Shown here piece after piece: positions 31,143-49,048 of a DNA stretch of 64,000 bases. The DNA lies in contig NZ_JAFEUV020000001.1 of NCBI RefSeq assembly GCF_017355915.2, positions 124,001-188,000 on the forward strand, given 5' to 3'. This DNA is from Telluribacter roseus. GTDB lineage: Bacteria > Bacteroidota > Bacteroidia > Cytophagales > Spirosomataceae. The translations under genes and the position numbers were made by a program. Within the stretch, counting starts at the first letter, position 1; each line of letters begins with the position of its first letter. Under the pieces are notes generated by a model, which saw only the letters and a program-made list of their open reading frames with translations, had not been told where the DNA came from and made no database searches.

Positions 31143-31169
31143 TTTTCTCTATTTCAGACAAGCGAAGAA

Positions 31170-32249
31170 ATGAAAACACTGCTGATAACCCTACTGATAA
31201 GTACCCTGGCTACCTGGGGCTACGGGCAGTACCCCCATCCGGGAGGTATGCACCCGCAGGCGCAGCTGGAGTTTGTGAAGAAGAAGGTCAAGGCCCGGGA
31301 GCAGCCCTATCTCAACGCCTACCGCCAGCTTATCCAATATGCCGATTCGGCTTTTCAGCATCCTACCCATGCGCTGGCTGATTTTAGGGTACCGGGCTAC
31401 TACATAGATGCCGTCGGCCACCGAACCAACTCCCGCTCCCTACAGTCCGACGCTTTTGATGCCTACGCCTGTGCCCTGACCTTTCAGCTAAGTGGTCAGA
31501 AAAAGTACGCCGACCAGGCCCTGCGATTTCTGAAGGCCTGGGCCGACCTCAATACTTCCTATTCGGAGCGCGACGGATCGCTGGTGATGGCCTACTCGGG
31601 TACGGCTATGGTAATGGCAGGGGAGCTGCTTTCTGATTACAAAGGCTGGAAGGCGGCCGACCGGGACCAGTTCAGAACGTGGGTACGTGATGTGTACCGG
31701 AAGTCGACCAACGAAATAAGAACCAAGAAGAACAACTGGGCCGACTGGGGGCGCTATGGCTCCATACTCTCCGCGTACTTTCTGGACGATACCGCTGAAG
31801 TCAACGAGAATATACGGTTGATGAAGAGTGACCTGTTTGATAAAATAGCGGAGGATGGGCACATGCCGCACGAAACGGTGCGCGGCAACAACGGAATCTG
31901 GTACACCTACTTCTCGCTGGCTCCCATTACGGCGGCGGGCTGGGTAGCCTACAACGCTACCGGCGAGAACTTGTTCACCTACTCCCAGGGCAGTCGCTCT
32001 ATCAAAAGAGCCGTGGATTACCTCTACCAGTATACCCTGCATCCGGAGGAGTGGCCGTGGTTTAAGAACCCAAACCGCGGCTCGCCGCAGAAGTGGCCGG
32101 GCAACCTGCTGGAGGTACTGGGAGATGTCTATAACGATCCCCGCTACACCGATTATGTCCGGGAGGCCCGCCCACTTATCTACAACCTGCACCACTTCGC
32201 CTGGACCTTCCCGACCCTGATGAAGGTACAACTGACTGAATATAAATAG
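31170..32249 (+). CDS. Alginate lyase family protein, PL38-like
   Basis: The 359-residue exported enzyme (signal peptide ending WGYGQ) has an alpha/alpha toroid with HPGGMHPQAQLEFVKKKV at the N-terminus, NNWADWGRYGSILSAYFLDD at 188-207 and DGHMPHETVRGNNGIWYTYF from 229. This resembles alginate_lyase proteins of the PL38 type, where glucuronan and alginate lyase activities are known. Assignment to PL38 is from motif memory and should be tested. It lies between the propeller and the second heparinase-like gene. Confidence 0.83.
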   Translation: MKTLLITLLISTLATWGYGQYPHPGGMHPQAQLEFVKKKVKAREQPYLNAYRQLIQYADSAFQHPTHALADFRVPGYYIDAVGHRTNSRSLQSDAFDAYACALTFQLSGQKKYADQALRFLKAWADLNTSYSERDGSLVMAYSGTAMVMAGELLSDYKGWKAADRDQFRTWVRDVYRKSTNEIRTKKNNWADWGRYGSILSAYFLDDTAEVNENIRLMKSDLFDKIAEDGHMPHETVRGNNGIWYTYFSLAPITAAGWVAYNATGENLFTYSQGSRSIKRAVDYLYQYTLHPEEWPWFKNPNRGSPQKWPGNLLEVLGDVYNDPRYTDYVREARPLIYNLHHFAWTFPTLMKVQLTEYK

Positions 32250-32280
32250 AAAGTAGCTACTCCTAACCCCTTATACAGCT

Positions 32281-34242
32281 ATGGCTTTAAACATGATGAA
32301 ACTCCTGATCCTCCCGATACTGCTCCTGCTTTCAGTAGGTAGCTGGGCACAGAAGCAGAACCTGCTAAGTGGCAAGTACACAGTTGATGAACTGGGTAAG
32401 GTACTTATCCCACAGGCGCAGTGGACACCCTTCCCCCGGCTGGACGATCGCGCTGGCTGGGCCAAAGCCGACAAGGCCATGATGCAGGCCTTTGTCAAGA
32501 AGGCCGAAGGCTACCTCAACTACGAGTGGCCCTTTATACCCGCGACCAAGTCGCTGCTGATCGAGCGGACCGGTGACCGCAACGAGTACCAGACCATCAG
32601 CTTTAAGAAGCGTGAAGTACTGGGTACTATGATCCTGGCCGAGATTTACGAAAATCAGGGTCGTTTTGTAGATCCCATTATCAACGGCGTGTGGTCTATC
32701 TGCGAAGAGTCATTCTGGGGGGTACCGGCTCACCTGCCCAAAACCAAAGAGCTGTCGGGGCTTATGGATGTGTCGAAGCCCTTCGTTGATCTGTTCGCCG
32801 CCGAAACGGCCACTTTTCTGGCCTGGGCCGACTACTACCTGGGCGACAAGTTTGACAAAGTATCGCCCCAGATCAGGAAGCGGATTTATAACGAAACGAA
32901 CTACCGGGTACTTGAGCCGCTCATGACCAAGCACCACGGCTTCATGACGTCCAACGCCAATGGACGCCGCCCCAACAACTGGAATCCCTGGATTTGCTCC
33001 AACTGGCTCAACGCGGTACTACTACTCGAAAAAGATCAGAACAAGCGCACCCAGGCCGTTCAGAAAGTACTAACCGTACTGGACAACTACCTCAATCCGC
33101 ACCCCCTCGATGGCGGCTGCGACGAAGGCCCCAGCTACTGGGGAGCCGCCGCCGCTTCGCTGTTTGACAACCTCGCTCTGCTGAATCAGGCTTCCAATGA
33201 TGCCTTTCGGTACGTCTATGAAGATGAAAAGATCAGGAATATGGGGCGATTTATCTACCGGGTACAGATCGGGCCGGAGTACTTTCTCAATTTTGCTGAT
33301 GCAGATCCACAGCCCAAAATGTCAGCCAGCATGATCTACCGCTTTGGCAAGGCCATCGGGGATGAGGAGATGATGAAGTTCGGAGCCTACTACCGCGAGC
33401 CCGAAGACGGCTCCATCGGACGGTTCCACTATTTCCGAAATTTCTACTCCCTGTTTATGCAGGACGAGTACCGCAAGGCTCCCCAGGGCTTGCCGCTCCC
33501 TAAAAGCGTGTGGCTCCCTGACTTGGAAGTAATGGTAGTACGCGACCGGGCCGGCAGTACGGATGGTCTTTTCGTGGCCGCCAAGGGAGGGAATAACGAC
33601 GAAAGTCACAACCACAACGACATTGGCAACTACGTGGTGTACTACAACGGCCTGCCGCTGCTGATTGACGTAGGGCGGGGTACCTATACACGTAAAACAT
33701 TCAGCGACGGGCGCTACGATATCTGGTACAACCGCTCCGACTACCACAATGTACCCACCATCAACGGCCACACGCAACCACCGGGGCCGCAGTTTAAGGC
33801 CAGTAACGTCGCTTTCCGGGATGACGAAGCTAGCGCGCAGTTTTCGCTGGATATGGCTCCCTCGTATCCTGCCGAAGCGGGTGTTACCAGTTGGCAGCGT
33901 ACCATCCGGCTCAACCGGGGGCGCAATGTCCAGGTTCAGGATGTTGTTAGTCTGAAAAACGCTACCGGCCTTACGCACCATCTGATGACCAGCTACCCCG
34001 CTGAGGTAGGTAAGCCCGGAGAACTAATCATCCACTACCAGCCCCAGGGGCACTCGGCCAAAGACTTTATAGTAAAGTATGACGCCAGGAAAATGCAACC
34101 CGTCGTAGAGAAAGTAAAACTGGAGGCCATGGAGGATGAAGGTATCAGGACCAAGTGGGGAGATACCATCTACCGGATCAACTTTAAGGTTATTTCTCCT
34201 AAAAAAGTAGATAAATTTGATTTTGTGGTAGCGGAGAAATAG
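32281..34242 (+). CDS. Heparinase II/III family protein (lyase B)
   Basis: The 653-residue exported protein (signal peptide ending GSWAQ) has an alpha/alpha toroid with RRPNNWNPWICSNWLNAVLL near 229-248 and CDEGPSYWGAAAAS near 280, followed by the heparinase II/III beta-sandwich with SHNHNDIGNYVVYYNGLPLL from 442 and RSDYHNVPTING. It is a different subfamily from lyase A, with which it shares only the fold. The 13-base word ctactcctaaccc just upstream (32257-32269) also precedes the first gene of the operon. It is the last gene of the enzyme operon. Confidence 0.88.
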   Translation: MALNMMKLLILPILLLLSVGSWAQKQNLLSGKYTVDELGKVLIPQAQWTPFPRLDDRAGWAKADKAMMQAFVKKAEGYLNYEWPFIPATKSLLIERTGDRNEYQTISFKKREVLGTMILAEIYENQGRFVDPIINGVWSICEESFWGVPAHLPKTKELSGLMDVSKPFVDLFAAETATFLAWADYYLGDKFDKVSPQIRKRIYNETNYRVLEPLMTKHHGFMTSNANGRRPNNWNPWICSNWLNAVLLLEKDQNKRTQAVQKVLTVLDNYLNPHPLDGGCDEGPSYWGAAAASLFDNLALLNQASNDAFRYVYEDEKIRNMGRFIYRVQIGPEYFLNFADADPQPKMSASMIYRFGKAIGDEEMMKFGAYYREPEDGSIGRFHYFRNFYSLFMQDEYRKAPQGLPLPKSVWLPDLEVMVVRDRAGSTDGLFVAAKGGNNDESHNHNDIGNYVVYYNGLPLLIDVGRGTYTRKTFSDGRYDIWYNRSDYHNVPTINGHTQPPGPQFKASNVAFRDDEASAQFSLDMAPSYPAEAGVTSWQRTIRLNRGRNVQVQDVVSLKNATGLTHHLMTSYPAEVGKPGELIIHYQPQGHSAKDFIVKYDARKMQPVVEKVKLEAMEDEGIRTKWGDTIYRINFKVISPKKVDKFDFVVAEK

Positions 34243-34588: not shown

Positions 34589-35083
34589 ATGAAACCCTAT
34601 TCGGAATATTCTGCCGAAGAGCTTGCGATGGAGCGCCTGTTTATCAGGTGGGTTCGGTACCCTAATGACCTGCCCATACGTGCGTTCTGGGAGAACTGGC
34701 TCATTCAGCACCCGCACATGGATGAGACAGTAACCGTAGCCAGGCAGCTGGTCGAAACATCTTCGGCTCTGGGGGCAGATGTCCTGTCAGGGGAGGAGGT
34801 GGGCTCACTCTGGAATAAGATCCGTACCTCCATTGAACAAATGCCCGATGTAGAGCCACTGGATGCTAAGCTGAAGACCGTGGCTACCAACTGGTACATC
34901 ATCAGGTGGAGTGTAGCAGTACTTACTGCTTTTGTAATGGTGTTGCTTTGGTATTTTCTTCAACCCGCTCACAGCTGCAAGGCACTGCTGCCTTTCTATG
35001 CCAAAGCTAACAGTGTTCAGGCAACGTCTCCGGCTGATTCGCTTAAGAAGCCGTTTACCATTTCTAAGAATCTTACTGACTAG
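34589..35083 (+). CDS. Truncated FecR-like membrane protein, orphan
   Basis: The 164-residue protein resembles only the N-terminal part of FecR anti-sigma factors: an acidic helical cytoplasmic region (ELAMERLFIRWVRYPNDLPI, FWENWLIQHPHM and EEVGSLWNKIRTSIEQM) and one membrane segment (about residues 106-128, RWSVAVLTAFVMVLLWYFL). Only about 35 periplasmic residues follow, with no FecR domain. No sigma-factor gene is adjacent, and the downstream SusC lacks an STN domain. It may be a remnant or a free-standing sigma inhibitor. A terminator follows immediately. Confidence 0.7.
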   Translation: MKPYSEYSAEELAMERLFIRWVRYPNDLPIRAFWENWLIQHPHMDETVTVARQLVETSSALGADVLSGEEVGSLWNKIRTSIEQMPDVEPLDAKLKTVATNWYIIRWSVAVLTAFVMVLLWYFLQPAHSCKALLPFYAKANSVQATSPADSLKKPFTISKNLTD

Positions 35084-35104: not shown

Positions 35105-35510
35105 GCTTCTTTTTACCTGGTCCTGCCACCCTTGCGATACTGGCGGGCTCATCAGGACCGCCTGCATGTGTCCGTCTGTGTATTAACCGATTCAAAAAAT
35201 TAAGTGACTAAATCTTGTCGGGAGATAAGTAGGCCTACGTTCAATTATTCTTCTTAACACAATTCTAAGAAAAAATTGTAGGAAAGGCGTAGGGGTAGCC
35301 GCAGGAATGGCTCGTCAGTCAGAATTAAGAAACCCAATGAGGGGTATAGGTAACATAGTGTCTGGTGGATACATACAAAAAGTCCTTTATATATTCATAA
35401 TTAAAGGTGCTTTTGCAGGATCCGGCTCAAAAGAGTACAAATCAGTAATTCTTTTCTCACATAATAATAATTTCCAATCAACCTATGTTCAACTCAAATC
35501 TCAAAGCGCT
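35105..35510. other. Long leader region of the second susC
   Basis: About 400 A/T-rich bases precede the second SusC. The susC frame stays open from an ATG at 35307, but those 68 codons look non-coding and precede the real signal peptide. A short inverted repeat, ggtcctg (about 35118) with caggacc (about 35153), is present. No exact TAnnTTTG box was found. A long 5' leader could carry post-transcriptional control. Confidence 0.4.
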
Positions 35511-38500
35511 ATGAAGAGACGCTTTACACGCATCGAACACATTTTGTACAGCTGTGCGGTAGCTACTCTGATAGGTACCTGCACCACTGTCAAAGCCGGA
35601 TCTTTCAACTCTCTGAATAAGGGAGTTAGCGTTGGCATAGCCATTGACAAAACAGTCACCGGTAAGGTGGTATCTACTGAAGATAACAGCCCGGTCCCTG
35701 GTGTAACTGTAGTAGTTAAGAATTCAACTGTAGGTACCACTACCGATGCCGATGGTACTTACCGGATCACTGTACCCAACGATAATGCTGTACTGGTATT
35801 CTCAGCCGTTGGTTTTACTACCCAGGAGGTAACTGTTGGGGCCCGCAGTGCCGTTAACATCAGCATGACCACCGACCAGAAGACCCTGAATGAGGTAGTT
35901 GTAGTTGGGTATGGTACTCAGAAAAAGAGTCAGTTAACAGGAGCTATTTCTTCGGTTTCGTCCCGTGAAATTGGTGAACTTCCCGTGACTAATGCCCGTC
36001 AGGCCTTGCAGGGCCGGGCTGCGGGGGTAGATGTTAACCAGGCAGGTAGTAAGCCAGGCTCGGCTCCTCAAATTCGTATCCGGGGGCGTCGTTCATTCAA
36101 CGCTTCCAATGATCCGCTGTTTGTAGTGGATGGTATTCCACTGTCCGGAGGAATCGATGACATCAACCCCAATGATATTGCCTCCATGGAGGTACTAAAA
36201 GATGCTTCTTCTACCGCTATTTATGGTTCAAGAGGTGCCAACGGGGTAGTTATTATTACTACGAAGCGGGGTACACCGGGTAAAACGACTGTAAGTTTGG
36301 ATGCCTATAGCGGCCTTAATAAGGAACTGGGTAGAATCGATGTAATGAATGGTCCCGAATTTGCAGAATTTAAAAGGGAATCACGTCGTGCTGTTGGTAA
36401 TTATACCACAGATGAAGCTCTTTTTGAACCAGTTGAGTTAGAATCCATTAAATTAGGGCGTACTACCGATTATCCGGCTGCTTTACTTCGCACCGGCTCT
36501 ATTAAGAGTTATCAAGTGGGTGTATCGGGGGGAACCGAAAAAACCCAGTTTAATATTTCAGGTAACTTTTTCCAGGATAAAGGAGTCGTCAAAAATCAGG
36601 ACTTTACCCGTTACACCTTCCGGGTAAATCTGGACCACAAAATCAACGATAAGATACGGGTTGGTACCTCCACGTTTGCTGTGTATGGAATACGTAACGG
36701 AGAGAACTTTAACCCCATAGGCGGTGCCCTACAGGAAAACCCACTGGGTAAGCCCTTCGATGATAATGGGAATATGATATTCCTGCCCACGCAGGATGGA
36801 CTACGTACCAATCCTTATGCGGAAATTGTACCAGGTGCGATCGTTGACGAACGTAAAAATTACCGGATCTTTAACAGCATCTATGGAGAGTGGAGTATCC
36901 TTGATGGTCTGAAGTACCGCTTCAACTTCGGCCCGGACATTAACTCAAACCGATATGGTCGCTTCTTTGGCAGTATGACCAATGCACGTCGTGGTGCACC
37001 TGCTTCGGGTAGTATTTTCAATGAGTTTACCTTCAACTATACAATTGAAAATATCCTTACTTATGCTAAGCAGTTCAATCAGATTCATAACCTGAACGTT
37101 ACACTTCTACAATCCTACCAGAAGGATAATTTTGAAGCCTCGGGAATAGACGTAACGGGAATTCCTGCCCCAACCCAAAAATTCTATAACTTGGGAGCTG
37201 CCAGCTTGATCAATAGTGTTGGAACTAACCTGCGGGAGTGGGCTCTGTTATCATACATGGCTCGTGTTAACTATGACTACAAAGAAAAGTATCTGGTTAC
37301 TGCTACTATTCGGGCTGATGGTTCTTCACGGTTTGGAGCTAACAACAAGTTTGGTTACTTCCCTTCGCTGGCCCTGGGCTGGAATATATCCAGCGAACCT
37401 TTCCTTCAGAATGTAAGGTGGCTGGATATGTCCAAGTTGCGCTTGAGCTACGGTTCTACGGGTAACCAGGCCATTGATCCTTATCAAACTCAACCTTTAC
37501 TATCGCGTACTGCTTACGCCTGGGACAATACAGCTGCTTTTGGTTATCGTCCGGGCTCGATCGGAAACCCCGATCTACGCTGGGAATCGTCGGCTACTGC
37601 CAATGCCGGTCTTGACTTTAGCATGTTCAACGGCCGTATTTCGGGTGCTCTCGAGTACTACGTGACTACGACTACTGATCTGCTGGCTCCTCAGCCCCTA
37701 CCTAACTCAACAGGTTTTGGTGGGTTTACAACCAACATCGGAAAAACCCGGAACCGGGGTATAGAGCTCTCGCTTTCTACCGTAAATATTGACAGAGGTA
37801 GTTTCCGCTGGAATACTGACCTGATGTTCACCCGCAACCGTGAAGAGATCGTTGAACTGGCAAACGGTAAAGTTGACGACGTGGCCGCCGGACGTTTTAT
37901 AGGTCAGCCTCTATCGGTCATCTTTGATTACAAGAAAATTGGTATCTGGCAAAGCAACGAAGCCGATGAAGCAGCCCGCTATCAGAGCAAAGTAGGTGAG
38001 ATCAAGATCCAGGACCTGAACAATGACGGAATCATCAACGCATTGGATCGTCAGATACTGGGGTCTGCTGTACCTGATTTCGTAGCTGGTCTTACCAACC
38101 GTTTTGAATACAAAGGTTTTGATTTTTCTTTCTTCCTGTACGCCCGGGCCGGACAGTTTATCGTGAGTACTTTCCATAATGACAGAAACCAGCTGGCCGG
38201 ACGCTATAACAACCTGGATGTTGATTACTGGACGCCTGATAATCCTACAAACGAATTCCCCCGTCCAAACGTAAACCAGGAGTTCCCCCGTTATAACACA
38301 TCACTTCTATATTTCGACGGGTCGTTCCTGAAGGTGCGCAATATTAATCTGGGTTATAATGTTCCGGCAAACTGGGCTTCTAAATTGGGGATGTCAAGCC
38401 TGCGTTTATACACCAGCATCCAGCAGCCGTTCATATTCTCGGAATACCGGACCAAGTACAAGGGCATAGATCCCGAAGTTGAACTGGACAATGGGCCCAG

Positions 38501-38579
38501 CAATCAGAACCGTGGAATTAGTGCGGATCTGGCGCCAGCTACAACCATTTACACTTTTGGCTTAAATGCTCGCTTTTAA
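35511..38579 (+). CDS. SusC/RagA-type TonB-dependent transporter without STN domain
   Basis: The product of about 1022 residues starts MKRRFTRIEHILYSC with a signal peptide ending near TVKA, then goes directly to the carboxypeptidase-regulatory-like domain (VTGKVVSTEDNSPVPGVTVV, TTDADGTYRITVPNDNA), the motif TLNEVVVVGYGTQKKSQLTG, the plug with KDASSTAIYGSRGANGVVII and a barrel ending YTFGLNARF. Unlike the SusC of locus 1 it has no STN domain, so it is not a FecI/FecR sensor. Its codons are visibly more A/T-rich than those of the lyase operon. It imports the substrate of locus 2 with the SusD encoded next. Confidence 0.95.
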   Translation: MKRRFTRIEHILYSCAVATLIGTCTTVKAGSFNSLNKGVSVGIAIDKTVTGKVVSTEDNSPVPGVTVVVKNSTVGTTTDADGTYRITVPNDNAVLVFSAVGFTTQEVTVGARSAVNISMTTDQKTLNEVVVVGYGTQKKSQLTGAISSVSSREIGELPVTNARQALQGRAAGVDVNQAGSKPGSAPQIRIRGRRSFNASNDPLFVVDGIPLSGGIDDINPNDIASMEVLKDASSTAIYGSRGANGVVIITTKRGTPGKTTVSLDAYSGLNKELGRIDVMNGPEFAEFKRESRRAVGNYTTDEALFEPVELESIKLGRTTDYPAALLRTGSIKSYQVGVSGGTEKTQFNISGNFFQDKGVVKNQDFTRYTFRVNLDHKINDKIRVGTSTFAVYGIRNGENFNPIGGALQENPLGKPFDDNGNMIFLPTQDGLRTNPYAEIVPGAIVDERKNYRIFNSIYGEWSILDGLKYRFNFGPDINSNRYGRFFGSMTNARRGAPASGSIFNEFTFNYTIENILTYAKQFNQIHNLNVTLLQSYQKDNFEASGIDVTGIPAPTQKFYNLGAASLINSVGTNLREWALLSYMARVNYDYKEKYLVTATIRADGSSRFGANNKFGYFPSLALGWNISSEPFLQNVRWLDMSKLRLSYGSTGNQAIDPYQTQPLLSRTAYAWDNTAAFGYRPGSIGNPDLRWESSATANAGLDFSMFNGRISGALEYYVTTTTDLLAPQPLPNSTGFGGFTTNIGKTRNRGIELSLSTVNIDRGSFRWNTDLMFTRNREEIVELANGKVDDVAAGRFIGQPLSVIFDYKKIGIWQSNEADEAARYQSKVGEIKIQDLNNDGIINALDRQILGSAVPDFVAGLTNRFEYKGFDFSFFLYARAGQFIVSTFHNDRNQLAGRYNNLDVDYWTPDNPTNEFPRPNVNQEFPRYNTSLLYFDGSFLKVRNINLGYNVPANWASKLGMSSLRLYTSIQQPFIFSEYRTKYKGIDPEVELDNGPSNQNRGISADLAPATTIYTFGLNARF

Positions 38580-38619
38580 GCAATAAATCAAAGTATCGAA
38601 CATGATAAGGTTTAATCAT

Positions 38620-40290
38620 ATGAAGAATTATATAAATTCATCGAAAGTGCTAAAAACAGGGGCCATGGTGGCTGTCCTGTTTATGGGCCAGTCGTGTGGA
38701 ATAAGTGTACTTGATGAGGATGTTGTATCCGGTATTAGCAACGATTACCTCAATACTGCACAGGGCTTTAATGATGGCGTCAATTCTGTTTATACAGGAT
38801 TACGGGATTGGTATGGTACTGAGCGGGGGAATAATTTTACCGTATTCGGTACAGATACCTACCAGAATGGCGCTGATGGAAGTCATAAATTTATCAATAC
38901 CTACGATGGAGCCTTTGATGCCCGTTCGGCTCACGTTCGGGAAGTATGGGATCTGTTTTACGCTACAATTAACGGCGCTAACGCTGTAATAGAGCGGGCA
39001 CCAAACGTAACAGGTATTACTGATGCAGTTCGAAAAGAACGTGTTGCCGAAGTAAAAGCCATCCGGGCTCACCATTACTTTATCCTGACGCAACTTTTTG
39101 GTGGAGTTGATCTGCGTCTTACCGAAACACTCACCCCCACCAAAGTAGCGGCCCGGGCTACGGTTCCGCAAATGTATACGGCTATCATCAAGGACCTGGA
39201 AGAAGCTATTCCTGATCTGGACGCGCGCTACCGCCATCCTAATTATGGACGATTCACCAAAGCGGCTGCTCAGCATCTCCTGGGTAAAGTATACCTGACC
39301 AAGGCTACCTCCGAAGCCAAGGCTGCCGACGACTATGCCAAAGCCGAAGCCCTGCTGAAGCAGGTAATTGCTACACCGGGTGCCGCACTGCTGGCTGACT
39401 TTGGTGATGTACACCGCCAGGGTAATGAGATGAATAACGAAGTAGTATTCGGAGTGCAGTATACTACCAACCCGTTGTCAAACGGAGGAGGAAATAACTC
39501 CCACCTGTACTTCCTGATGGAGTATGATGTAATGCCTGGTATGCGTCGTGACGTTACCAACGGACGTCCGTTCAAGCGGTATATGCCTACCAAGTACACG
39601 CTGAACCAGGTCTTTGTAAACCGTGAGAATGACAGCCGCTACTACAAGACCTTCAAGGATGTGTACTACAGTAACAACCCAGGTACTTATAACACAAACT
39701 ACGATAAGTCAAAGGCCAAGATAACCGTGGCTGCGGGTGATACGGCTATCTATGATCCGGGCTTCGAAATGCCCGAGGCCGAGAGAGCCAAGCGTAAATA
39801 CCAGGTACTGACCCCCAGCATGTACGATGAGCGTCGTTTCCCGGCTCTGCGTAAGAACATTGACGGTAATCGGGCTGACCTTACCGCTGAGCAGGGGGTA
39901 CGCGACTATATCGCCTTCCGTCTGGCTGATACGTATCTGATGCTGGCCGAAGCGCAGTTTAAGCAGGGTAAAGTAGACGAAGCTACTCAGAATATTAACA
40001 TGGTACGTCGGCGGGCGGCCTGGCCTGGTAAGCAGAAAGAAATGGAAATCACTCCGGCTCAGCTCACCATGGACTTCATCATGGAAGAGCGCGAGCGTGA
40101 GCTGCTGGGCGAGCAGATGCGCTGGTTTGACCTGAAGCGTTGGGGTGTACTGGTAGAGCGTGTGAAGCTGCATAACAATCAGGCAGCTCCTAATATTAAG
40201 GACTTCCACGTGTTGCGTCCTATTCCTCAGAACCAGATCGACCGGGTAGAAGGAGGCCCTTCTGCATTCCCTCAAAACCCGGGATTCTAA
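38620..40290 (+). CDS. SusD/RagB-type surface lipoprotein
   Basis: The 556-residue partner of the second SusC has a lipoprotein signal MKNYINSSKVLKTGAMVAVL ending at FMGQSC. SusD signatures include EVKAIRAHHYFILTQLFGGV, FTKAAAQHLLGKVYLTKATS, DYIAFRLADTYLMLAEAQFK and EERERELLGEQMRWFDLKRW. An upstream ATG at 38602 would add six residues. It lies about 40 bases after susC. The FGGVDLRL segment followed by TPTKVAARATV is typical of SusD proteins that bind plant-type glycans, but specificity cannot be read. Confidence 0.94.
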   Translation: MKNYINSSKVLKTGAMVAVLFMGQSCGISVLDEDVVSGISNDYLNTAQGFNDGVNSVYTGLRDWYGTERGNNFTVFGTDTYQNGADGSHKFINTYDGAFDARSAHVREVWDLFYATINGANAVIERAPNVTGITDAVRKERVAEVKAIRAHHYFILTQLFGGVDLRLTETLTPTKVAARATVPQMYTAIIKDLEEAIPDLDARYRHPNYGRFTKAAAQHLLGKVYLTKATSEAKAADDYAKAEALLKQVIATPGAALLADFGDVHRQGNEMNNEVVFGVQYTTNPLSNGGGNNSHLYFLMEYDVMPGMRRDVTNGRPFKRYMPTKYTLNQVFVNRENDSRYYKTFKDVYYSNNPGTYNTNYDKSKAKITVAAGDTAIYDPGFEMPEAERAKRKYQVLTPSMYDERRFPALRKNIDGNRADLTAEQGVRDYIAFRLADTYLMLAEAQFKQGKVDEATQNINMVRRRAAWPGKQKEMEITPAQLTMDFIMEERERELLGEQMRWFDLKRWGVLVERVKLHNNQAAPNIKDFHVLRPIPQNQIDRVEGGPSAFPQNPGF

Positions 40291-40522: not shown

Positions 40523-41455
40523 ATGAACTACATTAGTGATAAGAACAACTACGAACTAGACCGTCGCTCGTTTCTGCGTACTGCCGCCCTGGCCGCCTCT
40601 GCGTTGGTCACCTCACCTGTCTGGGCCGATGAGCTTGTCAAAAAAAGTGGCATCAAGATTGGCTACTCCTCCATTACCTGGGGAGGCAAGGACGAGCAGG
40701 CTATCAAAGATCTGGCTTCGCTGGGGTACAAGGGCGTGCAGCTCAGAGCCAATACATTTGGCCCCTACCGTAATAAGGTGTCGGATCTGCGGCGGATGCT
40801 TACCGAAAACGGACTTGAATTATGTATGTTCTCGAGCGGCAACGTGGAAATAGATCCGGCCAAAGAAGCCAGTACCATTGACACGCACGTAGCTCATGCG
40901 AGCTTTGTAAAGGCCCTGGGAGGTAGCTCACTACAGCTCACCAATAACGTACGTCCCAAGGATCGTGCCCCCTCGGTGGATGAGCTCAAAAGGCTGGCGG
41001 CTGTAATGAACGAGATCGGAAAGCAAACCGCCGACATGGGGGTTCAGGCGGTATACCACAACCACATGCACCAGCTGGGCGAAACACCCGAAGAGGTAGA
41101 TGTGATCGTACAGGCCATGGATCCACGGTACGTCAAACTGCTGCTGGATATCGCCCACTACAAGCAGGGGGGAGGAGAGCCCGAGAAGGCCGTACTCCAG
41201 TATAAGAATATGATCCACGCGCTTCACCTGAAAGATACCAAACCAGCCGATACCAAGAACGGCTACAAGTTTGTAGAGCTGGGTCAGGGACGGGTGGACG
41301 TACCGGCTGTATTCAAGGCGTTGAACAAGATCAAGTTTGATGGCTGGGCGGTAGTGGAGCTGGACGGGGTGCCCGATCCCGAAAAGAGCCCGCTGGTATG
41401 TGCTGAAATCAATAAGAAATTCATTACCGAAACCTTACGTCACCCTTTAAGCTGA
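40523..41455 (+). CDS. Tat-exported TIM-barrel protein (sugar isomerase/epimerase-like)
   Basis: The 310-residue protein has a twin-arginine signal (DRRSFLRTAALAASALV) and an AP-endonuclease-2/xylose-isomerase-like TIM barrel: GYSSITWGGKDEQAIKDLAS, then QAVYHNHMHQLGE, LLLDIAHYKQGGGEP, HALHLKDTKP and WAVVELDGVPDPE, which supply the His, Asp and Glu metal ligands. Despite the family name it is exported, so it acts on unphosphorylated sugars in the periplasm. In 3-keto-glycoside pathways of Bacteroidota, proteins of this fold catalyse elimination or hydration next to a 3-keto group. Its DUF1080 and Gfo/Idh/MocA neighbours support that role. Confidence 0.88.
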   Translation: MNYISDKNNYELDRRSFLRTAALAASALVTSPVWADELVKKSGIKIGYSSITWGGKDEQAIKDLASLGYKGVQLRANTFGPYRNKVSDLRRMLTENGLELCMFSSGNVEIDPAKEASTIDTHVAHASFVKALGGSSLQLTNNVRPKDRAPSVDELKRLAAVMNEIGKQTADMGVQAVYHNHMHQLGETPEEVDVIVQAMDPRYVKLLLDIAHYKQGGGEPEKAVLQYKNMIHALHLKDTKPADTKNGYKFVELGQGRVDVPAVFKALNKIKFDGWAVVELDGVPDPEKSPLVCAEINKKFITETLRHPLS

Positions 41456-41567
41456 TTAACTGCTTAGTCTTGTAAGGGTAACATAGCTAAATTATCGTTA
41501 GTAGTATTCGAAAGAAATGATACTCTTTCCTCGAGAAATACTAATAATCTACTAATCAAATATGTAC

Positions 41568-42947
41568 ATGAAGAGAATTAAGTATGGCGTCGCCCTCTTT
41601 TTGCTGGCCGCTTCTCTGAACGGAGCCGTAGCCCAAAAATCCAAAGATGGCTGGCAGATGCTATTCAATGGTAAAGACCTTACCGGCTGGAAACAGCTCA
41701 ACGGAAAGGCTAAGTACGAAGTAAAGGATGGTGTGATCGTAGGGACGTCTACCGTCAACACGCCTAACTCCTTCCTGACTACCGAAAAGAACTACGGAGA
41801 CTTTATTCTAGAAATGGATGTCATGGTAGATAACCAGCTCAACTCTGGTATCCAGATCCGTAGCTTATCCAAGCCTGAGTATATGGATGGTCGTGTACAC
41901 GGTTATCAGGTGGAGATCGACCCGAGCGATCGGGGCTGGTCGGCCGGTATCTACGACGAAGCGCGTCGAGGCTGGCTGTATCCGGTGGATCTGAACCCGG
42001 ATGCCAAGAAAGCTTTCAAGAAGGGTGAGTGGAACAAGTACCGGATCGAAGCCATGGGGCCCTCTATCCGTACTTTCCTCAATGGAGTACCCGTTGCGCA
42101 CGTCATTGACGACATGACTCCCGAAGGTTTTATATGCCTGCAGGTACATGGTATCGGCAACGACGCCAAAAAAGAAGGTACCCAAGTACGCTGGAAGAAC
42201 GTTCGCATCAAGACGACTGACCTGCAACCATCGCCCCCGGCCAACATCCGGGTAGTAAACAACCTGCTCAATACCCTCTCGGATGCCGAGAAGGCCCAGG
42301 GCTGGGAGTTGCTGTATGATGGTAAGTCGGCCGCTCACTGGCGTGGCTACAACAGCACAGAGTTTCCGCCTAAGCGCTGGAGCTACAACGATGGTACTAT
42401 CACAGTATCCAAGTCGGATGGCTCTGAAACCGGCAACGACATCGTAACCCGCGAAAAATTTGGCCCTGCATTTGAGTTTCAATTTGATTTTAAACTGACC
42501 GAAGGAGCCAACAGCGGTGTGAAGTACTTCGTCAACGAAGAGCTCAACTCTAAAGGCAAGTCAGGCCTCGGACTGGAGTACCAGGTACTGGACGATGAGC
42601 GCCACCCCGATGCCAAAATGGGCGTGGTAGGTAACCGTACCCTGGCTTCCCTGTATGACCTGATTCCTTCCGAAAAGCCCCGTAATTCCATTAATAAGAT
42701 TGGTGAGTGGAACAACGGCCGCATTGTAGTGCAGGCAGATGGTACCGTAGAGCATTTTCTGAATGGTCAGAAGGTACTTGAGTACAAGCGTGGTTCGGCC
42801 ATTTACAGAGCGCTGGTAGCTCGCTCCAAGTACAAAGACTTCCAGGGCTTTGGGTTGGCCGAGCAGGGAAATCTTCTCCTACAGGACCACGGCGACCATG
42901 TGTCGTTCCGTAACCTGAAAGTGAAGCGGATGAATCCCAAGATTTAA
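41568..42947 (+). CDS. Exported tandem DUF1080 (3-keto-disaccharide hydrolase-like) protein
   Basis: The protein of about 459 residues has a Sec signal peptide (MKRIKYGVALFLLAASLNGA, ending VAQ) and two DUF1080 (PF06439) concanavalin-like domains: one from about 30 (DGWQMLFNGKDLTGWKQLNG, FILEMDVMVDNQLNSGIQIR) to 210, the second from about 245 (GWELLYDGKSAAHWRGYNST, FQFDFKLTEGANSGVKYFVN) to the end. DUF1080 domains are linked to cleavage of 3-keto glycosides. Two in one chain could form two active sites or one active and one binding site. An ATG two codons upstream is possible. Confidence 0.9.
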   Translation: MKRIKYGVALFLLAASLNGAVAQKSKDGWQMLFNGKDLTGWKQLNGKAKYEVKDGVIVGTSTVNTPNSFLTTEKNYGDFILEMDVMVDNQLNSGIQIRSLSKPEYMDGRVHGYQVEIDPSDRGWSAGIYDEARRGWLYPVDLNPDAKKAFKKGEWNKYRIEAMGPSIRTFLNGVPVAHVIDDMTPEGFICLQVHGIGNDAKKEGTQVRWKNVRIKTTDLQPSPPANIRVVNNLLNTLSDAEKAQGWELLYDGKSAAHWRGYNSTEFPPKRWSYNDGTITVSKSDGSETGNDIVTREKFGPAFEFQFDFKLTEGANSGVKYFVNEELNSKGKSGLGLEYQVLDDERHPDAKMGVVGNRTLASLYDLIPSEKPRNSINKIGEWNNGRIVVQADGTVEHFLNGQKVLEYKRGSAIYRALVARSKYKDFQGFGLAEQGNLLLQDHGDHVSFRNLKVKRMNPKI

Positions 42948-42990
42948 TACACGTTTCTGATTCTCACAAAAACATAAAGCTAAACAATCC

Positions 42991-44331
42991 ATGACCAGTA
43001 GAAGAGATTTTATAAAGAAAACCGCTCTGGCCTCCGCAGGTATAGCCGTGAGTGCCAACGCTGTCAGCGCAGCCAGCTACCGTCGTATTCTGGGCGCCAA
43101 TGACCGGGTACGGGTAGGTATCATCGGTTTCTCTGACCGTTTCCGTAGCTCCCTGGCCCCCAGCTTCGCTGAGCACGCCAAGGAGATGAACTTCGAGTTT
43201 ATGGGCGTATCCGATATCTGGAACCGTCGCCGCGACGAGGCCGAGAAGTTCTTTAAGGATAAGCCTTCGGCTACTAAAGACTTCTTCAAGGCGCGAAACA
43301 ATGACGAACTACTGGCTCGTAAGGATGTTGACGCCGTAATCATCAGTACGGCTGATTTCCAGCACGCACTGCATTGCGTGGATGCCGTGAAGTCAGGACG
43401 TGATGTATATGTGGAGAAGCCATTTGCCGAGTCGCTGGAAGATGCCAAACTGGCTCTTAAAACCGTCGAAGCCTCCCGCCAGATCGTACAGGTAGGTTCG
43501 CAGCGCCGCTCAGCTCCTAATTACCATGCAGCTAATGAGTTTATCCGCTCAGGTAAGTTTGGTGATATCTCCATGGTAGAAATGACCTGGAACGTCAACC
43601 AGCCCGGCCGCTGGCGCCGTCCTGATCTCGTTAATTCTATTAAAAAAGAAGACGTAGACTGGGATCGCTTCCTGCTCAACCGTCCTAAGGTAGCCTGGAA
43701 TCCGCGCTACTACCTGGAGTACCGCTTGTTCTATCCCTACTCATCGGGTATTCCCGGTCAGTGGATGTCACACCAGATCGATACGGTACATTGGTTCTCA
43801 GGGCTGGAAGCACCACGTAGCGTAGTAGCCAACGGTGGTGTGTACGTATGGAAGGATGGCCGTACCAACGCCGATACCTTCACGGCAGTATTTGACTACG
43901 GTCCGTTCGATAATAAAGAAAAAGGCTTCCAGGTGATCTACTCATCGCGTATGCACCAGGCCGCCGGTGATGTGAAGGAGTACTACTACTCGAATGGTGG
44001 TATGATCAACCTGGATACCAACCAGATTACCCCGGAGGGAGGCTTGCAGGCCGGACCAGCCAAGTCCATGGGTATGGAGGCTAACCTGCTGCCCAAGATG
44101 GAGCTTAAGCAGGGGCCGAAGATCGAAACCTCGGCCAACACCGGTTCGGATCCGATGACATCGCTGCACATGCGCAACTGGATGGAATGTATTCGCAGCC
44201 GCAAGGAGCCCAATGCTCCTGCTCGTGCCGGCTTCAACCACTCCGTTGCCAATATCATGGCTACTCAGGCTATGCATACGGGTAAGCGTATCACCTGGGA
44301 TACCAAGAAGACGGACATCGTCATCAGCTAA
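42991..44331 (+). CDS. Tat-exported Gfo/Idh/MocA family oxidoreductase
   Basis: The 446-residue protein has a Tat signal (TSRRDFIKKTALASAGIAV) and a Rossmann domain beginning RVRVGIIGFSDRFRSSL near residue 39, with the family motif VEKPFAES (Glu142-Lys143-Pro144) and the C-terminal alpha/beta domain including NQPGRWRRPDLVNSIKKEDV and GQWMSHQIDTVHWFSG. Export through Tat fits a protein that folds around NAD(P) before secretion. Such enzymes can oxidise the 3-hydroxyl of glycosides and reduce keto sugars. A 14-bp terminator follows. Confidence 0.92.
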   Translation: MTSRRDFIKKTALASAGIAVSANAVSAASYRRILGANDRVRVGIIGFSDRFRSSLAPSFAEHAKEMNFEFMGVSDIWNRRRDEAEKFFKDKPSATKDFFKARNNDELLARKDVDAVIISTADFQHALHCVDAVKSGRDVYVEKPFAESLEDAKLALKTVEASRQIVQVGSQRRSAPNYHAANEFIRSGKFGDISMVEMTWNVNQPGRWRRPDLVNSIKKEDVDWDRFLLNRPKVAWNPRYYLEYRLFYPYSSGIPGQWMSHQIDTVHWFSGLEAPRSVVANGGVYVWKDGRTNADTFTAVFDYGPFDNKEKGFQVIYSSRMHQAAGDVKEYYYSNGGMINLDTNQITPEGGLQAGPAKSMGMEANLLPKMELKQGPKIETSANTGSDPMTSLHMRNWMECIRSRKEPNAPARAGFNHSVANIMATQAMHTGKRITWDTKKTDIVIS

Positions 44332-44343
44332 TAGCGCTGCACC

Positions 44344-44375
44344 AGTATCCGGCAGCCACTGGGCTGCCGGATACT
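44344..44375 (+). terminator. Terminator after the oxidoreductase gene
   Basis: Perfect 14-base arms 44344-44357 and 44362-44375 with loop actg, followed by ttctt. Confidence 0.85.
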
Positions 44376-44406
44376 TTCTTCTCTTCAACCTATAACTCTT
44401 GCTAAC

Positions 44407-45459
44407 GTGTATTCAAAAATAGTTACTAAAGCCAGTGTAGCTGCGACTTTAGCCATAGGGCTATGGGGAGGTGCGGCCAATGCTCAGCGTGTGGATCTGG
44501 TCCATAATCAGGCGGATAAGAAAGTCGAAGTAACGGTAGACGGCAAGCCTTTTACGGCCTACATCTATCCGGGTCAGGAGGTGTTGCGTAAAGCTGTGCT
44601 GTACCCGGTACTAACGGCGAAAGGAACGGCCATCACCCGTGGCTGGCCGATGGACCCGCGTCCTGACGAGCGGGTAGATCACCCGCACCACGTGGGAGTG
44701 TGGCTCAACCATGGCGATGTGAACGGCTATGATTTCTGGAACAGCTCCAATGCTGTGGACCGTACCAAACATAAGTACGGGGATATCCATCATACGGGTA
44801 TCAAGTCCATGAAAAGTGGCAAAAGTAAGGGTGAACTGACCGTGACTGCGGACTGGATCAATCAGGACGGAGGGTTGACACTCAAAGAAACGACTACGTA
44901 CATTTTCCGGGCAGAGGGGGACCGTCGGATCATTGATCGGATTACAACCCTTACCGCACCAGAAGGGGATGTTACTTTTAAGGATTCCAAGGAAGGCGTA
45001 TTTGCTATCCGACTGGCCCGCCAGCTCGAACATCCTTCCAACAAGCCTGAGCTGTTTACGGATGCGAGTGGTATAGCTACCAAAGTACCCGCTCTTAACA
45101 ACAATGGCGTAACGGGAAGCTATAAAAACAAGGAAGGAGTGAAAGGAGAAGATGTATGGGCCAAGCGTTCGGTATGGACTAATCTTACCGGGCAAATTGG
45201 CAACGAAAAAGTAAACGTAGCCATCATTGACCATCCACAGAACGTTAGCTATCCATCGTACTGGCATGCCCGTGGCTATGGTCTGTTTGCCATAAATCCA
45301 ATGGGTACCAAAGAGTTTACCAATGGAAAAGAAGCGCAGAACTTCCAATTAAAGAAAGGAGAATCCAAGACATTCAGGTACCGTTTAGTTGTTGACTCCA
45401 AGGACCTGGCTGATGCTGACCTGGATGCACTGGCGGCTGACTTTGCCAAAGTAAAGTAA
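44407..45459 (+). CDS. PmoA family protein (DUF6807), copy 1
   Basis: The 350-residue exported protein starts at GTG and has a signal peptide ending near GGAANAQ. The body shows the PmoA family core: GKPFTAYIYPGQEVLRKAVL, RPDERVDHPHHVGVWLNHGD and SYPSYWHARGYGLFAINPMG. The conserved His cluster (DHPHHVG) may bind metal. Despite the name it is not shown to be a methane monooxygenase part; the Bacteroidota proteins sit in glycan loci with unknown role. The next gene is a tandem duplicate with the same length and start codon. Confidence 0.88.
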   Translation: MYSKIVTKASVAATLAIGLWGGAANAQRVDLVHNQADKKVEVTVDGKPFTAYIYPGQEVLRKAVLYPVLTAKGTAITRGWPMDPRPDERVDHPHHVGVWLNHGDVNGYDFWNSSNAVDRTKHKYGDIHHTGIKSMKSGKSKGELTVTADWINQDGGLTLKETTTYIFRAEGDRRIIDRITTLTAPEGDVTFKDSKEGVFAIRLARQLEHPSNKPELFTDASGIATKVPALNNNGVTGSYKNKEGVKGEDVWAKRSVWTNLTGQIGNEKVNVAIIDHPQNVSYPSYWHARGYGLFAINPMGTKEFTNGKEAQNFQLKKGESKTFRYRLVVDSKDLADADLDALAADFAKVK

Positions 45460-45484
45460 TTGCTTTACCCGCTACTGAATACGT

Positions 45485-45516
45485 GACTCCCCCTGAGCTT
45501 CGGTTCTGGGGGAGTT
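45485..45516 (+). terminator. Terminator with a UUCG-type tetraloop
   Basis: The arm actccccc (45486-45493) pairs with gggggagt (45508-45515). The inner stem closes a c(ttcg)g tetraloop, a very stable RNA loop. It lies between the two PmoA genes. Confidence 0.8.
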
Positions 45517-45633
45517 GCTTCTTCAGATCAAAATTTTCAAACGTTTTCGACTCCAATATACTCCTTGTCTTGTAAGTTTGATGTCATAGGGGCACTGCCT
45601 CAGATATTATTCAACCCTTATTTACTAATAGCT

Positions 45634-46686
45634 GTGAAGATCAAGACACTACCTGCCGCCAGAGCTGCGGCTATCTTTTCGCTGGCTCTGCTGACGAGTG
45701 CCGCCAGTGCTCAGCGTGTGGACCTGGTTCATTACGAAGCGGACAAAAAAGTAGATATAATCGTAGATGGCAAGCCATTTACCTCCTACATCTATCCGGG
45801 GCCGGATAAGCTCAAGAAAGCCGTGCTGTACCCCATCCGTACCTCCCACGGCAAACTCGTGACCAGAGGGTGGCCCCTGGACCCACGTCCGGGTGAACGC
45901 GTAGACCACCCGCACCACGTGGGCGTTTGGCTCAACTACGAAGACGTCAACAAGCACGACTTCTGGAATAATTCGAACACGCCTCCCCGGCCTAACAGTA
46001 CCTACGGGACTATTGTACATACGGGTATACAATCCATAAAGAGTGGCAAACGGAAGGGAGAGCTGGCCGTCACGGCCGACTGGCTGGATAAGGACGGGAA
46101 CGTGATGCTGAAGGAGAAAACTACCTACCTCTTTAGTGCTTTGGGTGAACGCCGGGTTGTAGACCGCATCACTACCCTGACGGCCGCTAACGGTGAGGTG
46201 GAGTTTCCGGATGTAAAAGACGGTATGTTTGCCATACGGGTAGCCCGGGAGCTGGAACACCCTTCCAACAAGCCGGAGATCTATACGGATGCCAGTGGAG
46301 TAGCTACTAAAGTACCCGTCATGAACAACGAAGGAATAACGGGGAATTACCGAAGTAGTGAAGGGGTAGAAGGCGAAGATGTATGGAGCAAGCGTGCCAG
46401 CTGGGTAAACCTGCGCGGCAAGATAGGCGAAGAGAAAATTAGCGTAGCTATCATTGATCATCCCAAAAATGTAGGGTACCCTGCTTACTGGCACGCGCGC
46501 GGCTACGGCCTGTTTGCGGTAAATCCGTTGGGTGCCAAAGCCTTCACCAACGGCAAGGAAGTACTGAATTTTAAGCTGAAAAATGGGGAGTCAACTACTT
46601 TTCGCTACCGGTTGGTGATAGATTCCGATCATATCTCAGATGCTGACATGAAGGCTCTGGAAGCCGAATTTGCGAAGCTGAAGTAG
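45634..46686 (+). CDS. PmoA family protein (DUF6807), copy 2
   Basis: This is a paralogue of the preceding gene. From the GTG start the product is 350 residues, identical in length to copy 1, with the signal peptide VKIKTLPAARAAAIFSLALL ending ASAQ. It shares RVDLVH.EADKKV, RVDHPHHVGVWLN, LEHPSNKPE, TDASG.ATKVP and YWHARGYGLFA.NP.G. An in-frame upstream ATG at 45565 would add 23 atypical residues and is unlikely. The two copies differ over most of the chain, so the duplication is not recent and they may have separate substrates. Confidence 0.87.
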   Translation: MKIKTLPAARAAAIFSLALLTSAASAQRVDLVHYEADKKVDIIVDGKPFTSYIYPGPDKLKKAVLYPIRTSHGKLVTRGWPLDPRPGERVDHPHHVGVWLNYEDVNKHDFWNNSNTPPRPNSTYGTIVHTGIQSIKSGKRKGELAVTADWLDKDGNVMLKEKTTYLFSALGERRVVDRITTLTAANGEVEFPDVKDGMFAIRVARELEHPSNKPEIYTDASGVATKVPVMNNEGITGNYRSSEGVEGEDVWSKRASWVNLRGKIGEEKISVAIIDHPKNVGYPAYWHARGYGLFAVNPLGAKAFTNGKEVLNFKLKNGESTTFRYRLVIDSDHISDADMKALEAEFAKLK

Positions 46687-46710
46687 TAGTGCTATTTTAT
46701 CAGAAATCCA

Positions 46711-46747
46711 TACAAAAAGCCACGGGCCGGTTCCGTGGCTTTTTGTA
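46711..46747. terminator. Bidirectional terminator, 15-bp stem
   Basis: Perfect arms 46711-46725 and 46733-46747 around a 7-base loop, with aaaaa/ttttt inside the lower stem. Confidence 0.88.
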
Positions 46748-46817
46748 TATCCCTAATTTAAGTACTTTTAGAAACTTTTACGCTTTTTGTCCTGAATTCA
46801 TAATCCCTTATTAAACA

Positions 46818-47243
46818 ATGAAAAACACGTCCCGTCGCAAGTTTCTGAAGGCATCGGCTCTCGCCGGTGTAGGTACCACCATTGCTACCGGTGCAGTAGC
46901 TGCATCCACAGCGGCTGCTCCCAAAAAAGAACTTTTTGTCCACCATGTTTATTTTTATCTGAAAAATGCGGGTAGTGCCGCGGACAAGGCCAAGCTGATG
47001 GAAGGACTGGAGAAGCTTTCTAAGGTACCTACCATCCGGATGGTACACATCGGTACGCCGGCTACTACCAACCGGGATGTAATCGAGCGCGGGTACTCTA
47101 TATCATGGCTATGCTTATTCGACAACCTGGAAGAGCAGGAAGTATACCAGAAGCACCCGATTCACCTGAAATTCGTCGATGACTATTCACATCTGTGGGA
47201 GAAAGTAATCGTATACGATTCGGTAGGTCCTAAGCGGGCTTAA
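46818..47243 (+). CDS. Tat-exported Dabb (stress-responsive A/B barrel) protein
   Basis: The 141-residue protein has a Tat signal (TSRRKFLKASALAGVGTTIA) and a Dabb domain (PF07876): ELFVHHVYFYLKNAGSAADK, then LEKLSKVPTIRMVHIGTPAT and SWLCLFDNLEEQEVYQKHPI ending YSHLWEKVIVYDSVG. Dabb proteins are dimeric ferredoxin-like barrels. Exported members often lie beside Gfo/Idh/MocA genes in Bacteroidota and their role is unknown; a small-molecule enzyme or binding function on a keto-sugar is plausible. The last base of its stop codon is the first base of an upstream ATG for the next gene. Confidence 0.88.
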   Translation: MKNTSRRKFLKASALAGVGTTIATGAVAASTAAAPKKELFVHHVYFYLKNAGSAADKAKLMEGLEKLSKVPTIRMVHIGTPATTNRDVIERGYSISWLCLFDNLEEQEVYQKHPIHLKFVDDYSHLWEKVIVYDSVGPKRA

Positions 47244-47293
47244 TGGAGCCGACCGCTTACCAGACAACATTGGCCGCAACTTATATTAATTTT

Positions 47294-49048
47294 ATGCACA
47301 AGGTTAAATCCTTACTGGTACTACTGGCCGGAACGATCGGTTCGTCAGTAGCACAAACACCTACCGAGAAGATTCGCCTGAATCAGATTGGATATTATCC
47401 CGATGCTCCCAAGGTAGCCGTAGTAGTGGGGGAAGAGGCACAGGGGCCGTTCCAGATCAAGGAAGCCGGGAGCAACAAGGTTGTATTTAAAGGTACCCTG
47501 AGCGCGCCCCGTAGCAATCAGCATTCGGGCAAGAAGAGTCGGATTGCTGATTTTTCAGGCTTTACGAAAAGGGGGAACTATGTAGTCGAGATCCCAGGCG
47601 TAGGTACTTCGTATTCGTTCTCCATCAAGCCCGCCGTACACCGCGAGGTAGCGGCCGCTTCGCTCAAAGGATTCTACTACCAGCGCATTTCGACGCCTCT
47701 ACCCGAAAAGTACGCCGGGAAGTGGGCCCGGCCAGCCGGGCATCCCGACGACCAGGTCCTGATCCATCCGTCAGCGGCTTCGGCTGAGCGTCCGGCTGGT
47801 TCAATGATCTCTTCGCCCGGGGGCTGGTACGATGCCGGTGACTACAACAAGTACATTGTTAACTCAGGTATTACGGTGGGTACCTTGCTCTCGCTGTACG
47901 AGGATTTTCCGCAGTACACCCGGGGGCTGGATGTGAACATACCCGAAAGTGGTGACCAGGTACCCGATCTGCTCGACGAGACGTTGTACAACCTGCGCTG
48001 GATGCTGACCATGCAGGACCCCAATGACGGAGGCGTGTACCACAAGCTCACCAATCCTAGCTTTGACGGTATGGTGATGCCTGATAAAGCTACGAAGCCC
48101 CGGTACGTCATTCAGAAGAATACGATCGCTACGCTCAATTTCATAGCTGTAACAGCACAGGCGGCCCGAATTCTGGACAATTACAAGAAGGAGCTCCCCG
48201 GACTGGCCGACTCCTGCCGTACGGCTGCTCTCAAGGGCTGGGACTGGGTGAAGAAAAACCCGAATGTGCTGTACGATCAGAACGAAATGAACAAGCAGTT
48301 TGATCCGGACGTATCCACAGGTAGCTACCAGGACCGTAACGGAGAGGACGAATGGATATGGGCGGCTACCGAACTATACGTAACCACCGGACAGGACAAG
48401 TACCTCCAGGGAATCAACCTGTTTCCCGATGCCACGCTGCAATTGCCTTCCTGGAATCAGGTGCGGGCGCTGGCCTACTACACGCTGGCCCGCTCGCAGA
48501 AAAAGCTACCTGCCGGTGGAGCGCAGCACGTCAATCAGGCCAAGCAGGTACTCCTGAAATTTGCCGATGATCTGCTTACGGATCTGGACAAGCAGCCGTA
48601 TCATACGGTCATGGGCAAGACCAAGGGGGACTATATCTGGGGAAGTAGCGCTGTCGCGGCCAATCAGGGTATCACGCTCATACAGGCTTACCAGCTCAGC
48701 GGCGACCGCAAGTACCTCCATGCCGCACTCGGTAACCTGGATTATATCATGGGCCGTAATGCCACCGGGTACTCGTTCCTGACTGGTTTTGGACATAAGA
48801 CGCCCATGCGCCCACACCACCGCCCATCCGTGGCCGATGGTATCGAGGAGCCCGTGCCGGGACTGCTATCGGGCGGTCCTAATCCGGGACAGCAGGATAA
48901 GTGCAAAACGTACACGAGCAACTTTGCCGATGAGTCCTTCACGGATGATGACTGCTCGTATGCCTCCAACGAAATCGCGATCAACTGGAATGCTCCCATG
49001 GTGTACCTGGCCACGGCCGTGGAAGCGCTCATGGAGAAGAAAAAGTAA
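47294..49048 (+). CDS. GH9 family glycoside hydrolase (endo/exo-beta-glucanase)
   Basis: The 584-residue exported enzyme (start MHKVKSLLVLLAGTIGSSVA, signal ending VAQ) has an N-terminal Ig-like cellulase domain (IRLNQIGYYPDAPKVAVVVG) and a GH9 catalytic alpha/alpha barrel. The nucleophile-activating Asp pair lies in PGGWYDAGDYNKYIVN, and the acid Glu in SYASNEIAINWNAP near the C-terminus; LTGFGHKTPMRPHHRPS is the usual GH9 His-loop. GH9 enzymes cut beta-1,4-glucan, cellodextrins or mixed-linkage glucans. It gives the best hint to the substrate of locus 2. An upstream ATG at 47243 is unlikely. Confidence 0.93.
   Translation: MHKVKSLLVLLAGTIGSSVAQTPTEKIRLNQIGYYPDAPKVAVVVGEEAQGPFQIKEAGSNKVVFKGTLSAPRSNQHSGKKSRIADFSGFTKRGNYVVEIPGVGTSYSFSIKPAVHREVAAASLKGFYYQRISTPLPEKYAGKWARPAGHPDDQVLIHPSAASAERPAGSMISSPGGWYDAGDYNKYIVNSGITVGTLLSLYEDFPQYTRGLDVNIPESGDQVPDLLDETLYNLRWMLTMQDPNDGGVYHKLTNPSFDGMVMPDKATKPRYVIQKNTIATLNFIAVTAQAARILDNYKKELPGLADSCRTAALKGWDWVKKNPNVLYDQNEMNKQFDPDVSTGSYQDRNGEDEWIWAATELYVTTGQDKYLQGINLFPDATLQLPSWNQVRALAYYTLARSQKKLPAGGAQHVNQAKQVLLKFADDLLTDLDKQPYHTVMGKTKGDYIWGSSAVAANQGITLIQAYQLSGDRKYLHAALGNLDYIMGRNATGYSFLTGFGHKTPMRPHHRPSVADGIEEPVPGLLSGGPNPGQQDKCKTYTSNFADESFTDDDCSYASNEIAINWNAPMVYLATAVEALMEKKK

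Follow-up and report, generated by a model that had tools for sequence, protein, structure and literature searches.

Glycan cleavage by redox chemistry and elimination was recognised only recently and is probably under-annotated. The Bacteroides cluster BT2156-BT2160 (Nasseri et al. 2024) reportedly encodes a 3-keto glycoside system made up of a TIM-barrel eliminase, a DUF1080 protein and two Gfo/Idh/MocA oxidoreductases. Genetics of this cluster is cited in PMC9007349 and PMC11501099. Levoglucosan is degraded by oxidation, elimination, hydration and reduction, using Gfo/Idh/MocA and PF01261 enzymes (PMC7676230, PMC10066097). In AtOGE, the 3-keto-O-glucoside eliminase of Agrobacterium, residues H132, H134, D163, H189 and E233 are the metal ligands and the catalytic histidine (PMC10628242). 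Hydrolysis of 3-keto disaccharides has been proposed for DUF1080, and DUF1080 proteins with signal peptides have already been proposed to act on periplasmic 3-keto sugars (PMC9007349). ThuA and ThuB take part in forming 3-keto disaccharides (Ampomah 2013, as cited in PMC4765114 and PMC6683767).

The window analysed here is a stretch of 64,000 nucleotides from Telluribacter roseus, a soil-type member of the Bacteroidota. All seven ORFs at 40523-49048 on the + strand were found behind a SusC-SusD pair, and the original prediction of seven adjacent exported proteins at this place was right as to ORFs, order and families. Gene calls were simple ORF picks. The features are as follows.

35307..38579, + strand: SusC-like TonB-dependent transporter (Plug and CarbopepD_reg domains), upstream of the core in relatives too
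38602..40290, + strand: SusD-like lipoprotein (PF07980, 5e-34)
40523..41455, + strand: Tat-exported xylose-isomerase-like TIM barrel, putative 3-keto-glycoside eliminase or hydratase (PF01261, 4e-33)
41562..42947, + strand: Sec-exported tandem DUF1080, putative 3-keto-glycoside hydratase/hydrolase (PF06439 twice, 7.5e-85)
42991..44331, + strand: Tat-exported Gfo/Idh/MocA oxidoreductase, putative glycoside 3-dehydrogenase (PF01408, 2e-15)
44344..44375, + strand: terminator-like hairpin between the Gfo gene and the first DUF6807 gene, 14-bp stem, function putative
44407..45459, + strand: Sec-exported DUF6807 protein 1 (PF14100, 1.7e-79, 267.7 bits)
45634..46686, + strand: Sec-exported DUF6807 protein 2 (PF14100, 3.2e-81, 273.3 bits)
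46709..46749, no strand assigned: long terminator-like hairpin between the second DUF6807 gene and Dabb-GH9, 17 pairs with a 14-bp perfect stem
46818..47243, + strand: Tat-exported Dabb protein, accessory (PF07876, 8.2e-16)
47294..49048, + strand: Sec-exported GH9 glycosidase with CelD_N, accessory (PF00759, 4.1e-83)

The second DUF6807 gene starts better at the in-frame GTG 45634, which gives a signal peptide followed by 350 amino acids, the length of its paralogue. The start of the GH9 gene was moved to ATG 47294, which differs from the ORF list. Three twin-arginine signals were observed directly, as had been predicted: DRRSFLR in the TIM barrel, SRRDFIK in the Gfo protein and SRRKFLK in the Dabb protein. 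The NCBIfam Tat model matched those of the TIM barrel and the Gfo protein, the RR motif was conserved among orthologues, and TatC is encoded in the same genome. Sec-type signals were recognised by eye in the other four proteins (DUF1080, both DUF6807 and GH9). The same locus is present on a contig of T. humicola (L009), where DUF6807 identity is 94%. Ahead of SusC lies a 164-amino-acid ORF (34589-35083) with no Pfam match. It is possibly a truncated anti-sigma factor, and several relatives have a similar reading frame in front of SusC.

Since the genome of T. roseus itself carries ~24 DUF1080 genes and ~44 first-look Gfo/Idh/MocA candidates, adjacency alone is weak evidence. We therefore rely on recurrence. 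Sixty loci of the host family were sampled solely for holding DUF6807. A close Gfo orthologue was present in 23 of the 60, nearly always beside DUF1080, and the order TIM barrel-DUF1080-Gfo was found in ~15 and was kept across many genera; some loci lacked the TIM barrel or had a single DUF1080. The Gfo protein and the main type of DUF6807 agreed in 77 of 81 family genomes (both in 71, neither in 6, Gfo only in 4), a co-presence with a Fisher value of 6e-7 when relatedness is ignored. Phylum-wide, a Gfo orthologue of 60-65% identity was found in 16 other genomes, usually with DUF1080 and sometimes with DUF6807 beside it. Outside the family, DUF6807 occurred in 8 of 15 genomes with the Gfo orthologue and in 20 of 230 without it (Fisher 4e-5, phylogeny ignored). 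The core TIM barrel-DUF1080-Gfo-DUF6807 is found repeatedly within the family, and Gfo-DUF1080, alone or together with DUF6807, in genomes across the phylum, so this gene set is no chance juxtaposition. The four families recur together, as the original prediction had expected.

Residues H179, H181, D209, H235 and E279 of the TIM barrel were invariant in 13 of 13 orthologues. In the sequence comparison they correspond, in this order, to the five AtOGE residues named above, so that the metal and catalytic residues of an eliminase are in place in the predicted lyase. PDB sequence matches of the TIM barrel were IolE 3cny, 8tct, 8tcs, 8tcd, 8bvk and 8ro4. The closest sequence relative was IolE, with which the H-x-H, D, H, E set is also compatible; the score against the IolE myo-inosose dehydratase equivalog TIGR04379 was 100.3 bits, below its curated cut-off of 290. 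Because AtOGE-type enzymes and IolE both perform keto-assisted elimination, the residues leave the substrate class unfixed. The locus might accordingly be read as an exported cyclitol/inositol-type pathway of the same chemistry, in which an inositol-like dehydrogenase (the Gfo protein) and an inosose-type dehydratase (the TIM barrel) would act on inositol-containing plant compounds. The 3cny and TIGR04379 matches favour this pathway, as does a score of 76 bits for the IolG model against the Gfo protein. Both scores are nevertheless far under the equivalog cut-offs (355 for IolG), the locus holds no other Iol gene, and DUF1080 and SusCD indicate glycans. The glycoside 3-dehydrogenase model also scored higher than IolG on the Gfo protein, and we consider the inositol pathway improbable.

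That higher-scoring model, NF058561 (BT_2158 glycoside 3-dehydrogenase), was the best NCBIfam model for the Gfo protein, with 103.9 bits, far below its cut-off of 750. The best PDB relatives were 8tdh/8tdf, and putative glycoside 3-dehydrogenases are among the closest proteins of solved structure. We take Nasseri et al. 2024 to be the source of these nearest chains, and also of some of those nearest to the TIM barrel and DUF1080. The tandem DUF1080 protein was matched over almost its whole length by 4jqt ('putative glycosyl hydrolase'; 521 bits). Alignment and conservation showed that K143 and H261 of the Gfo protein are invariant and that Q257, likewise invariant, occupies the place of the canonical catalytic Asp. 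The AlphaFold models of the Gfo and DUF6807 proteins were weak, being built from very few sequences; the Gfo model had a pLDDT of 46.4 overall, and its Rossmann half (~60-88) was the only usable part. Foldseek with this half returned DgpA1, levoglucosan dehydrogenase and GFOR. A nicotinamide-binding Rossmann domain is thus present, as the predicted bound NAD demands, both by PF01408 and by the match of the modelled half to Gfo/Idh/MocA enzymes. The position that is oxidised is not fixed, because the model score fell far short of its cut-off (104 vs 750 bits) and the Asp position holds Q257. Oxidation at C3 by this protein would follow by analogy. The original prediction also had this enzyme closing the redox cycle with its own NAD; this is a hypothesis that gains no support here, as Gln stands at the Asp position and the data show no reduction step.

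The two proteins called PmoA in the original prediction were misnamed, and their family is DUF6807 (PF14100). They are 66% identical, and both are over the PF14100 gathering cut-off of 27. A true PmoA/methane monooxygenase was rejected, as the window proteins match no Pfam family except PF14100. The papers searched described no function for DUF6807, a PDB sequence search gave no relative, and a scan of viral sequences no DUF6807. A contig scan with an alignment of the two paralogues gave 2 loci only. H92, H94, N106, D109, E161 and R202 (numbering of the first DUF6807 protein) were kept even in divergent forms and likely belong to the active site. The AlphaFold model (pLDDT 45.8) gave a weak Foldseek hint at a galactose-mutarotase-like fold, with a best E of 4.6e-3 from this poor model; comparison with PF01263 proteins of related genomes gave no profile similarity.

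Outside the host family, a Gfo/Idh/MocA gene was immediately adjacent to DUF6807 in 12 of 20 loci selected only for DUF6807; such genes made up 12 of the 39 genes adjoining DUF6807 vs 1 of the 134 at least 4 genes away. Within the family the counts were 19 of 117 adjoining and 5 of 451 distant genes. Fusions of DUF6807 to DUF1080 (L131) and to ThuA (L136, L137) were observed directly, the latter beside Gfo genes. Neighbourhoods, fusions and conserved residues agree that DUF6807 acts with sugar oxidation, and leave the reaction unspecified; DUF6807 could represent a lyase, hydratase or epimerase of a new type for oxidised sugars. We give an even chance to the reading that DUF6807 enzymes form an overlooked family in the breakdown of 3-keto sugars outside the cytoplasm. 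They would work beside several oxidation systems that are unrelated to one another: Gfo/Idh/MocA, PQQ-cytochrome c-DUF1080 and DUF7133-cytochrome c.

Other arrangements of DUF6807 were seen as well. The DUF1080-DUF6807 fusion (L131:7555-9144) has DUF1501 before it and a Gfo/Idh/MocA gene after it. The genome of T. roseus encodes a 1278-amino-acid fusion of DUF6807, DUF7133, HEAT repeats and cytochrome c (L122:2523-6356, G000:C13), and open frames of ~1280 amino acids matching DUF6807 occur in many searched genomes of the host family. In the same genome, a PQQ-cytochrome c-DUF1080 fusion adjoins a divergent DUF6807 gene, with a SusCD pair nearby (L124:9390-13204, G000:C17). In a Bacteroidota MAG, DUF1080x2, a Gfo from another subfamily (BT_2158_fam score 163 bits), DUF6807 and one more DUF1080 follow each other (L010:319-4834).

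The last two genes of the set are of another kind. PDB matches of the Dabb protein were 3bn7 (2e-27) and olivetolic acid cyclase, and the GH9 translation holds the catalytic motifs GWYDAGDYNKY and SNEIAINW. Among the family loci, Dabb and GH9 accompany the core in just two genera, Telluribacter and one more. Terminator-like hairpins lie after the Gfo gene, between the DUF6807 genes and before Dabb, and GH9 may therefore be separately transcribed. GH9 and Dabb, absent from the locus in most relatives, were rejected as core parts, and their proposed integral role is not supported. With GH9 and Dabb carried by few relatives and set apart by hairpins, the proposal that the substrate is beta-glucan oligomers from GH9 is unproven and, as it stands, unsupported. 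PmoA and Dabb had been put forward as extra steps; DUF6807 is a recurrent partner of the core, and Dabb an accessory seen in two genera. The same observations bear on a rival reading, a conventional GH9 locus that hydrolyses beta-glucan and carries the oxidoreductase-type genes as unrelated passengers. The catalytic motifs and the SusCD pair ahead would suit such a locus, but in most relatives the core persists while GH9 is missing, and hairpins lie between the two. We regard it as very unlikely.

Directly upstream, positions 15404-34242 hold a sigma factor, FecR, SusCD, DUF4466 and BNR_4 proteins, together with three members of the alginate-lyase family, one of which has a beta-helix, and two proteins that resemble heparinase II/III. 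This content is consistent with a uronic-acid polysaccharide utilisation locus. The module might serve uronic-acid oligosaccharides from that locus and no glucans, as the alginate-lyase-family and heparinase-like proteins are on the same strand, and distant Gfo loci lie near glucuronate isomerase (L081) and near GH28 (L080). However, SusCD and sigma/anti-sigma genes are already part of the upstream locus itself, and among the family loci that were read the core was usually accompanied by a separate SusCD pair. We consider a uronic-acid role unlikely.

Core recurrence, the TIM-barrel residues and the solved relatives of the Gfo protein make a secreted, step-wise oxidation-elimination-hydration module for glycoside cleavage the best reading, and we consider it probable. 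Deletions of BT2157 and BT2158 gave no growth defect on raffinose-family sugars (PMC11501099), which counts against a 3-keto module. In the following route we infer every reaction, as well as the substrate, oxidation at C3 and the redox balance. SusCD would import oligosaccharides or glycosides through the outer membrane. The Gfo/Idh/MocA protein, exported by Tat in folded form with its nicotinamide cofactor, would oxidise a sugar hydroxyl, at C3 by analogy. The Tat-exported, metal-dependent TIM barrel would then split off the aglycone or the leaving sugar by elimination, which yields a 2-hydroxy-3-keto-glycal, and the tandem DUF1080 would hydrate the glycal or hydrolyse the 3-keto glycoside. 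The two DUF6807 proteins may act on oxidised sugar in the same route, for instance by broadening its range with an alternative lyase, hydratase or epimerase activity. Dabb and GH9 would be an accessory pair, transcribed separately. Of the 3-keto module first proposed, the recurrent exported TIM barrel, DUF1080 and Gfo proteins, the eliminase residues and the putative 3-keto-pathway relatives support the centre; GH9 and Dabb drop out as core parts, and beta-glucan as the substrate is unsupported. If the reading is true, a Tat-exported version in SusCD loci of an environmental Bacteroidota family would extend this chemistry beyond the gut. Tying DUF6807 to 3-keto chemistry also gives a testable function to a family with a misleading methane-oxygenase name.

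The Telluribacter core shares its three enzyme superfamilies with BT2156-BT2160, but differs in a distinct Gfo subfamily, one Gfo protein vs two, a tandem DUF1080 and Tat signals. It also has DUF6807, which was not found in the Bacteroides control genome searched; the control search did find a DUF6807 gene in Caulobacter. The levoglucosan pathway LgdA-LgdB1-LgdB2-LgdC likewise couples oxidation by a Gfo/Idh/MocA enzyme to elimination and hydration by PF01261 TIM barrels; unlike the exported Telluribacter set, it has a separate reductase, LgdC, and is described with no DUF1080, SusCD or DUF6807. With AtOGE (PMC10628242) only the barrel corresponds, its H-x-H, D, H, E site being conserved in Telluribacter, whereas oxidation in Agrobacterium is by a flavoenzyme. 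In Caulobacter (PMC9007349) the 3-keto sugar is also made outside the cytoplasm with a signal-peptide DUF1080 downstream, but by the membrane dehydrogenase LacABC in place of a Tat-exported Gfo protein. The ThuA/ThuB route resembles the present system in that ThuB is an oxidoreductase and ThuA-DUF6807 fusions stand beside Gfo genes; the core in the window has no ThuA. The 'periplasmic version' of the original prediction is less new than implied, given the earlier DUF1080 proposal (PMC9007349). The step-wise chemistry is known, and the locus presents a variant of it with Tat export, a link to SusCD and a Gfo subfamily of its own. The well-supported new point is the link of DUF6807 to 3-keto-sugar chemistry.
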